From the NCBI GenBank assembly GCA_002699025.1, contig PABA01000142.1:1-38298 (forward strand): 38,298 bases of DNA, given 5' to 3'. The notes beneath the pieces were generated by a model that saw only the letters and a list, made by a program, of their open reading frames with translations, was not told the DNA's origin and did not search any database. This document shows positions 4,687 to 9,175 of the stretch, one piece after another; position 1 is the first letter of the stretch, and each line of letters begins with the position of its first letter. The DNA comes from Sandaracinus sp. (GTDB lineage: Bacteria; Myxococcota_A; Polyangia; Polyangiales; Houyiibacteriaceae). The translations under genes and the position numbers were made by a program.

Positions 4687-5307
4687 TCACTCGTCCGAGG
4701 GAGGCCGCGCGACGACCACCATGGCCGCGCGCAGGAGGCGCCCCTGCATCGTGTAGCCGGGGACGACCTCGGCGACGACGGTGCCGGGCGGGTGCTCGTC
4801 CGTCGGGTGCTGCTGGACGGCGTCGTGCAGGTTCGGATCGAACTGGGCGCCGACCGCCTTCACGCGCTCGAGGCCCATGCGCTCGGCGCGCTCCTGGAAG
4901 CCGCGGAGGACCATGCGGACGCCCTCGGCGACGGCCTCGGCGTCCTTGGCCTGGCCCGACGCGGCGACGGCGCGCTCGAGGTCGTCGACGACCGGCAGGA
5001 AGTCGCGGAAGGCGTCCTCGCGGGCGCGCTTCTTCGTGTCTTCGAGCTCGCGCTTGGCGCGCTTGCGGAAGTTGTCGAAGTCGGCGGCGACGCGAAGCAG
5101 GCGATCCTTGAGCTGCTCGCGCTCGGCGATCAGGGCTTCCACGTCGACCTCGAGCTCGGCCGGCGGGTCGGCGTGATCGACCACGTCCTTCGCCTCGGCC
5201 ACGGCGCTCTTCGGTGCGGGGTCCTCGCCGTGGGGCTGGGGCCCGGTGATGTCCTCGTGCTCGTGGTGCCCGTCGTCCTGCGGGTCGTTGTGCGTATCGT
5301 CGGCCAC
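4687..5307 (-). CDS. grpE: nucleotide exchange factor GrpE
   Basis: A 206-aa dimeric cochaperone that releases ADP from DnaK. An acidic, His-rich disordered N-terminus (about 1-45) leads into a long coiled coil (about 50-110, with RVAADFDNFRKRAKRE) and the C-terminal beta domain ending GYTMQGRLLRAAMVVVARP, the usual GrpE signature. I chose the GTG at 5305-5307 because a GGAG ribosome site lies 6-7 bases upstream; upstream codons in the same frame run into repeat DNA with no homology. A sigma70-like promoter is placed just upstream. Gene order grpE-dnaK supports an operon. Confidence 0.93.
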   Translation of the reverse strand: MADDTHNDPQDDGHHEHEDITGPQPHGEDPAPKSAVAEAKDVVDHADPPAELEVDVEALIAEREQLKDRLLRVAADFDNFRKRAKRELEDTKKRAREDAFRDFLPVVDDLERAVAASGQAKDAEAVAEGVRMVLRGFQERAERMGLERVKAVGAQFDPNLHDAVQQHPTDEHPPGTVVAEVVPGYTMQGRLLRAAMVVVARPPSDE

Positions 5308-5326
5308 GTCTCGCTCCAGGGACGCG

Positions 5327-5355
5327 AGCGTAGGCCGGCGCGGCGAATCCTTCAA
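5327..5355 (-). promoter_or_regulatory. candidate grpE-dnaK promoter
   Basis: On the minus strand TTGAAG (5355-5350) and TACGCT (5332-5327) are separated by exactly 17 bp, a sigma70-like arrangement about 20 bp from the GTG start. The TTGAA core could also fit a heat-shock sigma -35 element. No complete CIRCE operator (TTAGCACTC with its inverted partner) overlaps it. Confidence 0.45.
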
Positions 5356-5391
5356 CGAAAACGCAGCACGCTCGCTGCGCTCGCGCGGTGC

Positions 5392-5607
5392 GCGCTCGCT
5401 TCGCTCGCGCGGCGGTCCGCTGTCCGCTATCCGCATTCCGCCGGGGGCGGTCGGCGGGTGCGGGGAGCGGCCGCGTTCGCGGAGAGGGCGGCGCGGTTCC
5501 TCGCGCTCGCTTCGCTCGCGCGGCGGTCCGCTGTCTGCTTTCCGCTTTCCGCCGGGGGCGGTCGGCGGGTGGGCGGAGCGGCCGCGTTCGCGGAGAGGGC
5601 GGCGCGG
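5392..5607. repeat. 111-bp direct repeat, two copies, with 7-bp periodicity
   Basis: Two copies start at 5392 and 5503 and match over roughly 105 bp each. Each contains heptamers of the form CCGCNNT (5417-5444 and 5528-5555) followed by a shared segment reading CCGGGGGCGGTCGGCGGGT and by GCGTTCGCGGAGAGGGCGGC. No gene is supported in this interval. Confidence 0.85.
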
Positions 5608-5755
5608 GCTGGCGCGGTAGGAGCACTTCCTGCCGGCCCTCGTGCACGCGCACGAGGGCCCGCGTCGCCCGCGCGCGGGGGAGCTCGGTGAGCGTCTGCG
5701 CGCGTGCTCGCTCCCCGCCGCGCCAGCCCGCCCCGCCCCTCTCCGCGAACGCGGC
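5581..5755. repeat. nested inverted repeat with central 11-bp hairpin
   Basis: The arm at 5581-5617 is almost the exact reverse complement of 5718-5755. Between them lies a perfect hairpin with stems at 5635-5645 and 5650-5660 (GGCCCTCGTGC and its complement) around a 4-nt ACGC loop. There is no T-run for an intrinsic terminator. It lies between ftsB and grpE and forms the centre of the surrounding repeat complex. Confidence 0.8.
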
Positions 5756-6081
5756 ATGGACCGTGAAGTCGAGCGCCAGCACGGAAAGCGGACAGCGGAA
5801 CGCGGAACGCATCCCGACCGCAGGGAGGGATCCCCAGCGGCATGGACCGTGAAGTCGAGCGCCAGCACGGAAAGCGGACAGCGGAACGTGGAACGCATCC
5901 CGACCGCAGGGAGGGATCCCCAGCGGCATGGACCGTGAAGTCGCGCGCCAGCACGGACAGCGGACAGCGGAACGCGGAACGCATCCCGACCGCAGGGAGG
6001 GATCCCCAGCGGCGTGAAGTCGCGCGCCAGCACGGACAGCGGAAAGCGGAACGCGGAAGGCATCCCGACCGCAGGGAGGGA
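5755..6081. repeat. 86-bp tandem repeat, about four copies
   Basis: Units begin at 5755, 5841, 5927 and 6013. The first three are nearly identical; the last lacks the first 7 bp. Each unit contains four 7-mers of the form CGGANNG (for example 5782-5809) and a CATCCCGACCGCAGGGAGGG segment. The array ends exactly at the stop codon of the ftsB-like gene. Together with 5308-5754 this makes 774 bp without a gene. Confidence 0.9.
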
Positions 6082-6522
6082 TCACTCCGGGAACTGGAAG
6101 ACGAGCTCGTCGTCGCGGATCATGCCGAGCTCGTCGCGGGCGACCCGCTCGATGGCCGCCGGGTCGCTCTCGAGCGCCTCCACCTCGCGCTGGAGCGCCC
6201 GCACCTCGCGCTCGAGGCGCTGGTTCGTCGCGTCCACCTCGCGGAGCTCGTCGCTGAGCACGCGGTAGCGGGGCAGACCCTGCTCGTCGAGGATGCGCAG
6301 GGGCACGGCGACGATCGCGACCACGAGCAGCATGAAGGGCAGGAGCCAGGCGAGCGTGTGGGCCGCCGTGCGGAGCTCCCCCTCCGGCTCGGGCGCCGCG
6401 CTGCGCGCCCGTCCCCGCGGGCGCAGGCTCCCCCGCGCCGCCGAAGGCTCCCGCTCGCGCGCGTCTCCAGGCACGGAGGGAGAGTCCCGATCCCGTGGGA
6501 TTCCGTCCAGTTTCCGGTGCAT
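6082..6522 (-). CDS. FtsB/DivIC-family septum formation protein
   Basis: A 146-aa bitopic membrane protein. A basic, Pro/Ser-rich cytoplasmic tail (1-52) is followed by one transmembrane helix (about 56-77), a heptad coiled coil (about 85-119) and the family's closing motif, here IERVARDELGMIRDDELVFQF. FtsB/DivIC proteins form a complex with FtsL and FtsQ/DivIB that activates septal wall synthesis. The cytoplasmic tail is longer than in Escherichia coli FtsB. I chose the ATG at 6520-6522. Its 3' end abuts the 86-bp tandem array, so a read-through transcript towards grpE would carry those repeats. Divergent from hrcA. Confidence 0.85.
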   Translation of the reverse strand: MHRKLDGIPRDRDSPSVPGDAREREPSAARGSLRPRGRARSAAPEPEGELRTAAHTLAWLLPFMLLVVAIVAVPLRILDEQGLPRYRVLSDELREVDATNQRLEREVRALQREVEALESDPAAIERVARDELGMIRDDELVFQFPE

Positions 6523-6592
6523 GCGGCGCCCGCCGATGGCACCATCCCTCCGTGAGGCGCCGCCGCGGGGCGGGGGCGCGAGGACGAGACCC

Positions 6593-7654
6593 TTGGCCGA
6601 GCTGACGTACCGCGCCCGCCGCATCCTCTACGCCACGGTCACCGAGTACATCTCGACCGGCGAGCCCGTCGGCTCGCGCAAGCTCTCGAAGCGCTACGGC
6701 ATCAACCTCTCGCCGGCGACGATCCGCAACGTCCTCGCCGACCTCGAGGACCTCGGCTACGTGCAGCAGCCGCACACCTCGGCTGGGCGCGTGCCCACCG
6801 AGCGCGGCTTCCGCGTCTTCGTCGACGCGCTGGTGCAGATGCGCGAGGTGACCGCCGAGGACCGCGCCGCCGTGCTCGACCGGCTCCAGCACCTGGCGCC
6901 CGGGACGGACGTGCTCCACCAGGCCGGCGAGCTCCTCAGCACGCTCACGGGCGCCGCCGCCGTGGTGACCGACCCGCAGCCCGAGCGCGAGTCACTCGCG
7001 CAGCTCCGCTTCATGCCCCTGGACGCGAGCCGGCTGCTGGTGGTGCTCGTCACGCGCCATGGCGGCGTCGAGAACCGCGTCGTCGACCTCGCCGGCGGGG
7101 TCGACCCGGCCGAGCTCGAGCGCGTGAACAACCTCATCGAGGAGCTCCTCCAGAGCGACGCGCGCAGCCTGGTCGCCGTGCGCGACGCGCTCCTCGCCGA
7201 CATCGACGCCGAGCGGGGCACGATCAAGCAGCTCCGGGAGAAGGCGCGCTCGATGATCGACGCGGCCGTCGAGCGGGAGGAGCCGGCGAAGGTGCGCATC
7301 GAGGGGCAGGGGCGGCTCTTCGACCGGCCCGAGTTCCTCGACGCCGACAAGATCCGCCAGTACCTGCGCGCCTTCGACGACAAGGAGCGGCTGCTCGAGC
7401 TGCTGGAGCAGACGCTGGCCTCGGGCGGCGTGCGGGTGTTGATCGGGTCCGAGACGCGGCTCGAGCACGTGGACGACATCAGCCTGATCTCGAGCCCCTT
7501 CAGCGGGAGCGGCTCGGCGAAGGGCTCGCTCGGCGTGATCGGGCCGACGCGGATGGACTACGCGAAGGTGGTCCCGCTGGTCGGCTTCACGGCGCGGGTG
7601 ATGAGCGAGATCCTCGGCGACCACGACGTCGACTCGGAGGACGAGGGCGAGTGA
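6593..7654 (+). CDS. hrcA: heat-inducible transcription repressor HrcA
   Basis: A 353-aa repressor from the start used here. HrcA dimers normally bind CIRCE operators upstream of groE and dnaK operons, with GroEL keeping the repressor active. The N-terminal winged helix (about 5-75) shows ILYATVTEYISTGEPVGSR and a second segment, PATIRNVLADLEDLGY. A GAF-like domain ends with the characteristic GSLGVIGPTRMDYAKVVPLV. I prefer the TTG at 6593-6595 because AGGA lies 8 bases upstream and the length then fits the family; ATG at 6536 or 6521 would add 19 or 24 residues without a visible ribosome site. It is divergent from ftsB and separated from grpE-dnaK. Its stop abuts the next convergent stop in TGATCA. 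Confidence 0.94.
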   Translation: MAELTYRARRILYATVTEYISTGEPVGSRKLSKRYGINLSPATIRNVLADLEDLGYVQQPHTSAGRVPTERGFRVFVDALVQMREVTAEDRAAVLDRLQHLAPGTDVLHQAGELLSTLTGAAAVVTDPQPERESLAQLRFMPLDASRLLVVLVTRHGGVENRVVDLAGGVDPAELERVNNLIEELLQSDARSLVAVRDALLADIDAERGTIKQLREKARSMIDAAVEREEPAKVRIEGQGRLFDRPEFLDADKIRQYLRAFDDKERLLELLEQTLASGGVRVLIGSETRLEHVDDISLISSPFSGSGSAKGSLGVIGPTRMDYAKVVPLVGFTARVMSEILGDHDVDSEDEGE

Positions 7655-9175
7655 TCAGTCGGCGGCGGCGTCGTCGCCGTCCACGGGCTCGTCACCCTGG
7701 GTGTCGTCGGACTCCGCCTGCTCCCGCGCCCGGCGCATGGCCCGGGCGAAGTCCGCCAGCACGCTCCGCGTGTCGAAGGTCAGTCGCCCTTCTTCGCGGA
7801 AGAAGCGCAGCGATAGGTGCCAGCCCGGCTGATCGCTCGTCGGCAGGTCCAGCTCGATGCCGTGCCGCGCCAGCCTCTCGCCGAGCCGGCTCGGCGTCGG
7901 CTCGCCCTCGGCGGGCCGGAGCCGGAAGGGTGGCGTGTGAAAGCTCTCGGCTGCCCGGGTCACGCACGCCCGGAGCTCGGCGCTCTCGGAGCGCGCGACC
8001 ACGTCGTGGAGTCGCCCGTCTCCGCGAACCCAGGCGTCGAAGAAGAGCTCGTCTTCCGCCTCCGAGCACGCGCCGATGGCCTCGACCATCGCGTGGAGGG
8101 CGGCGTCGATCTCTTCGGGGTGCGGGGCGCACTCGGGGCCCTCTCCGCGCGCGAGGGCCGCCCGATCCTCCGGGGTGCAGAGGCGCCACGCGGCGGGCCT
8201 GGCGGTGTTGTCCGGCCCGCCGGTATAGCGGGCGCGGTCGGCGCCGCAGACGGCGGGCAACATCATCCCGAGCGCGCCGGTCAGCGCGCGCATGACGGCG
8301 AGCGCCTCGTCCTCGCGCTGCTCTTCGGCCATCCGCTGCATGAGCGCGAACCCCCGCTCGGGCATGCCGTTCATCGCGGCGACTTCGAAGTAGCTGTCCA
8401 CGTGGTTCGGCAGCTCGTCGGCGGGGAGGGCCTCGAGCCACTCGAGCAAGGCCTTGCGTCGCCGCGCGTGGAAGAGCGCCGGCAGCACACACGCCGGGTC
8501 CCCGCCCGCGCGCGCCTGGGCCAGGTCCTCGTCCCGGCGCGCGTACCAGTCGGCGTCGTGGAGCTCGACCGCCCGGCCGAGGCGCGCGTCGGCCGCCCGA
8601 TGAAAGCGCGCGCGCGTCACGCGCCAGCCGTCCGGCTGGCGCTCCAATCGGTAGCGGCCCACCTCGACGTGGGCTCCCTGCGAGGTTCGGAGCTCGACGT
8701 CGACGACGCCGTCCTCGGTCACGTCCGCCGTGGCGGCGACCGTGGGAGCGTCGAGTGGTCGGCGCGCGGCGCGCAGGGCGGACCGGTCGTCGAAGCCGGT
8801 CGCGTCGAAGGCCGCGCGCTCTTCGAGGAGCCGGTCCAGCGTCGGTACGCGCCGGCACGCCGGGGGGACCTCTTCTTCCGCGAGAGCCTCTTCGGTCAGC
8901 GCCTCCACGGCCGCGCGGGCCGGTGCGCCTCGAAGCCGGATGTCGAAGGGGTCTGGCTCGCCGTGGCGGGCGAAGACGACGACGGGCTCCTCGGCCCAGA
9001 TCGCCATGCGGAGCGACGGGTTCATCTTCACCCGTGCGTCGCACTCGGCTTCGATCAGCTGGGCGACGATGGGCGCGGTGTCGATGGGGGGTGAGGCCGG
9101 CCCGACCGGCGCGGGGGGGGGCGCGCCGGCGCAGGCGGCGAGGAGGAGCAGCGTCGCGGGGAGGGGGCGGGGCAT
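7655..9175 (-). CDS. putative lipoprotein, function unknown
   Basis: A 506-aa protein whose short signal peptide ends LLAACAG, giving a lipidated Cys at residue 15. A Pro/Ala-rich linker follows, then a large, mostly helical region with many charged residues and several scattered Cys. A domain around residues 70-230 mixes strand-like and helical segments. The last 20 residues are acidic. No catalytic motif or family was recognised. The stop overlaps the TGATCA shared with the convergent hrcA stop, so there is no intergenic space at that end. It lies 99 bp downstream of the Kazal-domain gene on the same strand. Confidence 0.7.
   Translation of the reverse strand: MPRPLPATLLLLAACAGAPPPAPVGPASPPIDTAPIVAQLIEAECDARVKMNPSLRMAIWAEEPVVVFARHGEPDPFDIRLRGAPARAAVEALTEEALAEEEVPPACRRVPTLDRLLEERAAFDATGFDDRSALRAARRPLDAPTVAATADVTEDGVVDVELRTSQGAHVEVGRYRLERQPDGWRVTRARFHRAADARLGRAVELHDADWYARRDEDLAQARAGGDPACVLPALFHARRRKALLEWLEALPADELPNHVDSYFEVAAMNGMPERGFALMQRMAEEQREDEALAVMRALTGALGMMLPAVCGADRARYTGGPDNTARPAAWRLCTPEDRAALARGEGPECAPHPEEIDAALHAMVEAIGACSEAEDELFFDAWVRGDGRLHDVVARSESAELRACVTRAAESFHTPPFRLRPAEGEPTPSRLGERLARHGIELDLPTSDQPGWHLSLRFFREEGRLTFDTRSVLADFARAMRRAREQAESDDTQGDEPVDGDDAAAD

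Follow-up and report, generated by a model that had tools for sequence, protein, structure and literature searches.

A dispersed intergenic hairpin-heptamer repeat in a Sandaracinus genome

Six repeat units between grpE and ftsB

The window analysed here, a 38,298-nt stretch of contig PABA01000142.1 from Sandaracinus sp., contains between grpE and an ftsB-like gene about 690 bp of non-coding DNA, which a first-pass annotation had read as a single mirror-arranged inverted-repeat complex. What is this stretch, does it occur elsewhere, and what places it at the edges of genes? The stretch (5391-6087) falls between the grpE start at 5307 and the ftsB stop at 6082, as annotated, with both genes on the minus strand. 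We found that the 690 bp consist of six units of one family, two on the plus and four on the minus strand, arranged tail to tail:

4687-5307, minus strand: grpE, start 83 nt from the P1 hairpin
5366-5388, plus strand: further copy of the 5' hairpin segment, upstream of P1 and lacking heptamers (repeat family D4)
5391-5484, plus strand: unit P1, GGGGGCGGTCGG-middle subtype; outer stem 5391-5395/5407-5411, heptamers 5415-5442, 3' stem-loop 5470-5484; assigned by sequence, a covariance-model match at 5386-5444 (E 1.7e-4) and an nhmmer match
5502-5595, tail to about 5617, plus strand: unit P2, subtype of P1; outer stem 5502-5506/5518-5522, heptamers 5526-5553, 3' stem-loop 5581-5595; assigned by sequence, 95% identity to P1 and nhmmer
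5596-5740, no strand: inter-array spacer; contains a hairpin of its own (5632-5663) and the arms formed by the 3' tails of P2 (5597-5617) and M1 (5718-5738)
5741-5836, minus strand: unit M1, a 112-bit covariance-model match and the sole minus unit of the window with a full 3' stem-loop
5837-5922, minus strand: unit M2, short form of 86 bp that lacks the 3' stem-loop tail
5923-6008, minus strand: unit M3, short form
6010-6087, minus strand: unit M4, gene-proximal; its 5' hairpin begins inside the ftsB TGA stop codon
6082-6474, minus strand: ftsB-like gene (septum formation initiator), stop codon abutting M4

The two plus units are 111 bp apart and 95% identical to each other, while the four minus units are spaced by 86, 86 and 79 bp. 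The plus-strand heptamers described before are present, at positions shifted by 2 nt (5415-5442 and 5526-5553), and reappear on the minus strand in all four units of the 86-bp type. The inverted arms were also recovered (5581-5599 with 5737-5755 at 100%, 5597-5617 with 5718-5738 at 95%), as was the central hairpin (5632-5645/5650-5663, 93%). A single 690-bp element, on the other hand, did not hold up: the unit is about 95-120 bp long, the stretch looks mirrored because two opposite tandem arrays of one family meet tail to tail, and the arms correspond to the 3' ends of P2 and M1, the innermost pair of units, which are homologous.

Architecture of the unit and pairing of its stems

Read on the heptamer strand, a unit comprises a first stem-loop (for example ATCCC-TCCCTTCGGTC-GGGAT), the dinucleotide GC, three to four heptamers NTCCGCN, a spacer of about 30 nt, most commonly CTGGCGCTCGACTTCGCGGTCCATG, a second stem-loop (CCGC-TTCG-GCGGAG) and a degenerate tail. 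The plus units of the window carry a different spacer, starting with GGGGGCGGTCGG, but one of them is nevertheless picked up by the covariance model of the other subtype (E 1.7e-4). With a tail that is weak and G-rich and with most units spaced at 105-130 bp, the full unit comes close to 120 bp; the 86-bp units seen in the window are short versions that lack the second stem-loop tail. Three full heptamers are present in 173/207 units (range 2-6), so that variation in number concerns whole units and not inner modules. TCCGC, the core of the heptamer, hardly varies and repeats at a fixed 7-nt pitch, both being partly imposed by the search pattern. An unusually long heptamer run with overlapping four-core matches at 7-nt steps was noted at G000:C19:112685-112737.

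In the first hairpin, the outer stem is paired in 97.6% of cells and shows 18 double changes where 5.6 are expected. Its covariation score is 0.167 compared with 0.046 in shuffles, and slid controls fail. In the canonical register there are 32 distinct stems; AT, CG and TA all occur at pair 1, while pair 4 can be CG, GC or AT. The first stem-loop is thus maintained through compensatory changes, and the hairpin is real. The second stem is nearly invariant and hence uninformative with regard to covariation. Folding of whole units revealed no added stability over shuffles (z -0.4 sense, -0.8 antisense), and a strand preference of G-U wobbles, which would be a sign of RNA, fell from 41 vs 11 on all copies to 10 vs 4 on independent stems (p 0.18). 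As neither the folding nor the comparison of G-U with A-C is significant, the hairpin could form in RNA or in single-stranded DNA. Alternative pairings are possible as well, since TCCGC of the heptamers can base-pair with GCGGA in the 3' stem-loop.

A long 3' tail shared by all copies was considered as a further part of the element and rejected: beyond the weak G-rich tail, what 3' flanks have in common is chiefly simple repeats and units that are decayed or lie on the opposite strand. On the gene-distal side of arrays a second motif recurs around TCGTCCTCGTGCACGTGCACGTC (3' flanks, e.g. loci L117, L118 and L150), as do the simple repeats GCTCGTG and GGGCTT.

Abundance in one genome

The draft genome (9.24 Mb in 238 contigs, 95.9% complete) was screened for four TCCGC cores at 7-nt pitch, which yielded 348 exact matches, a few of them overlapping in long heptamer runs, and none for the reversed control pattern. 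The covariance model gave at least 150 matches in the genome, and nhmmer 260 in about 1 Mb of genome sequence, of which a few stretches overlap. A BLAST search of the genome with the region returned 109 matches, the region itself included. A sample of 398 kb chosen irrespective of the family contained 11 arrays, grouped at four places, which agrees in order of magnitude with the count for the whole genome. Many different gene pairs carry copies. A large number of arrays are no more than a few hundred bases away from a contig end (for example on contigs C7, C8, C101, C169 and C202 of the genome, on C7 and C8 at both ends); the repeat therefore probably interrupts the assembly, and the actual number of copies would be higher.

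Among 36 relatives of the same family and order the heptamer pattern was matched 0-2 times each, and the covariance model found no match in 56 relatives. No homologous family was found among about 85,000 species genomes, a set that may lack records very similar to this genome; the nine strict-pattern matches obtained there were single, spread over unrelated phyla and chance-like, and were not accepted as homologues. A phage origin was rejected, as the strict pattern had no match in viral contigs, and a known RNA family was rejected after Rfam 15 gave no covariance-model match up to E 1. The family is therefore abundant in one genome and all but missing from family-level relatives. With about 350 copies, 98% of them intergenic, and 0-2 in relatives, the idea of a dispersed intergenic repeat rather than chance composition was borne out, while the opposite case, units found nowhere else and conserved by descent, was checked and does not apply.

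Placement and polarity

Genes were called with a purpose-written codon-usage gene caller, and 205 of 210 arrays were found to be intergenic. Convergent regions are somewhat over-represented (23/71 compared with 40/194 ordinary regions), and in co-directional regions the orientation is even, with 16 sense and 18 antisense arrays. The distance to a stop codon has a median of 10 nt from the hairpin (5') end and of 114 nt from the 3' end (p 1e-7). Gaps to start codons are 59 nt for the 5' end and 254 nt for the 3' end (p 3e-9), values that are approximate because gene starts are less certain than stops. In 53 of 63 arrays with a single orientation the hairpin end points toward the nearer gene (p 3e-8), and opposite-strand junctions within one intergenic region are tail to tail in 14 cases and head to head in none. 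Undetected decayed distal units may widen the 3' gap somewhat but cannot yield the 14:0 order. This rule, with the hairpin against the gene and opposite arrays tail to tail, provides a direct test of site choice and of a possible effect on transcript ends.

In about 40% of arrays the hairpin end is turned toward a start codon and not a stop. Stop-facing arrays place a sense-strand stem-loop just past the stop codon, as a terminator would have it. In the region 20-60 nt past array-contacted stops T is more frequent than after ordinary stops (0.23 vs 0.12) and YC dimers are also commoner (p 3e-4), the C/G excess is marginal (p 0.045), and no U-run follows stops with arrays. Scores against the family are higher for the gene-proximal unit (50 bits) than for the distal one (39 bits; p 0.004), a difference that suggests selection at the edge of the gene.

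Likeness of units within arrays

Units share 87% identity when they belong to one array and 62% when they come from different arrays, and for 94 of 119 units the closest match is another member of their own array. Stem sequences are shared by 59% within arrays compared with 6% between them, and arrays often keep one private stem. This likeness and the private stems indicate local growth or homogenisation of arrays once a seed has arrived, and the restriction of the family to one genome implies recent spread.

Comparison with known repeats

With the REP/BIME/REPIN repeats of Enterobacteria and Pseudomonas (PMC3116915, PMC2817692) the family shares more than 100 dispersed extragenic copies, hairpins and mosaic arrays in both orientations. 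Those are RAYT-linked palindromes of 20-40 nt with a conserved tetranucleotide at the foot of the hairpin and inverted doublets, whereas here a unit of about 95-120 bp (about 95 nt in the alignment) carries a heptamer tract, the stem foot is variable, a REP-like core with its conserved tetranucleotide is lacking, neighboring units form direct tandems for the most part, and inverted pairs are exclusively tail to tail. The Y1 tyrosine transposase (Y1_Tnp, PF01797) had no match in the 95.9%-complete genome although controls were detected, and a RAYT-driven REP/REPIN was rejected on this basis.

Pneumococcal BOX elements (boxA-boxB(n)-boxC; PMC3049150) likewise have end modules around a repeated inner module, are intergenic and frequent between convergent genes, and are predicted to form RNA stem-loops. 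In contrast to BOX, the inner module here is a 7-mer, nearly always three plus a partial one rather than variable in number (three full heptamers in 173/207 units), the whole unit is tandemly repeated, and there are no terminal inverted repeats. A MITE/BOX assignment was dropped on the absence of terminal inverted repeats and flush target duplications. TAACTGA heptamers of Beggiatoaceae and Cyanobacteria (PMC4679880) are also direct heptamer repeats at many intergenic sites of one genome, and were proposed to be RNA-level protein-binding arrays, mostly located just upstream of start codons (PMC4679880); the present heptamers have a TCCGC core, are flanked by hairpins and often follow stop codons.

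The repeat works most like REP/BIME and BOX yet fails defining tests of each. Inverted DNA uptake sequences of Neisseria and Haemophilus act as terminators and are dispersed at gene ends, with inverted pairs between convergent genes; they are words of 10-12 nt with far higher copy number and without a heptamer tract. In the literature searched, in which subscription journals are thinly covered, no earlier description of the hairpin-heptamer family was found. Small dispersed repeats are known in many bacteria; what stands out here is the abundance in one species-level genome together with a strict placement rule.

Possible origin and role

We tentatively favor a lineage-specific, REP/BIME-like dispersed intergenic repeat that spread recently and was amplified locally, with the gene-proximal unit as a putative transcript 3'-end element. 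New sites would be reached by copying within the genome, followed by local amplification, and copies would be kept, or best tolerated, where outgoing transcripts meet the stem-loop first and the pyrimidine-rich heptamer tract next. The gene-proximal unit could in this way serve the transcript 3' end, by termination or by stabilisation; the order seen at stop codons, first a stem-loop and behind it a pyrimidine-rich tract, would fit a transcript-end element, perhaps a Rho-assisted one. Judged from sequence, the repeat probably acts as, or is tolerated as, such an element. The even sense/antisense split (16/18) and the many start-facing arrays are unexpected for a pure terminator, and folding no better than shuffles, the wobble counts (10 vs 4, p 0.18), the absent U-run and the marginal C/G excess also speak against the 3'-end role; against the proposal as a whole, a mobilising enzyme was not identified in the genome.

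As start-facing arrays misfit a simple terminator, there is room for a selfish repeat with polarised insertion. A purely selfish repeat, moved in trans by an enzyme with fixed polarity at gene edges and subject to tandem duplication and decay, with no gain to the host, we regard as possible rather than probable. The lineage-specific burst, the even orientation in co-directional regions and the decay of gene-distal units all agree with it, and the genome has a group II intron reverse transcriptase, at least two retron-type reverse transcriptases and a fourth RVT_1 match; but neither Y1_Tnp/RAYT nor terminal inverted repeats nor flush target duplications were found, and insertion alone leaves the better preservation of the gene-proximal unit unexplained. 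In the alignment the two unit ends are unlike each other, and words shared by the flanks derive from neighboring decayed units and simple repeats. With RAYT, terminal inverted repeats and target duplications all looked for in vain, the "small non-autonomous element" of the annotation stays conjectural. The RVT_1 matches lie at loci L209, L210, L211 and L212, one being a group II intron reverse transcriptase, two retron-type and one unnamed (L210). No repeat adjoins the three named enzymes, and two heptamer-pattern matches lie on the same locus as L210.

It is unlikely that the repeat is primarily a DNA-level site, at which a nucleoid, gyrase-type or recombination protein would bind the heptamer array and an extruded hairpin irrespective of transcription. 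REP elements bind gyrase and similar proteins. Stem pairing is kept without an established one-strand wobble preference, and TCCGC recurs nearly invariant at 7-nt pitch as in a protein-binding array (partly an effect of the search pattern), but gene-directed polarity and stop-codon contact are easier to reach via transcription. Equally doubtful is a polarised repeat growing at gene edges, in which the hairpin would always face the gene on copy-in, units would be homogenised locally with compensatory stem change and older units would decay inwards, giving self-spreading transcript-end modules genome-wide in one lineage, perhaps by RNA- or hairpin-primed copying not yet described. Chance composition or an assembly artefact, which high GC, a draft assembly and several arrays at contig ends might suggest, is already refuted by 348 matches vs 0 for the reversed pattern, 0-2 in 36 relatives, the covarying stem and the many distinct gene pairs carrying copies.

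Gene order around the locus

The repeat likely breaks assemblies and offers homology for rearrangements. Relatives examined for an empty site at ftsB-grpE have a gene order there that differs from the one in this genome. In most relatives hrcA, grpE and dnaK run in one direction with ftsB divergent from hrcA, while two relatives (L092, L099) have yet other orders. In the window (4687-7654) the segment of hrcA and ftsB is inverted relative to grpE-dnaK, and the arrays therefore sit at a rearrangement breakpoint. Beside this otherwise expanded intergenic region, hrcA and the convergent gene at 7655-9175 adjoin with zero gap (7654-7655).
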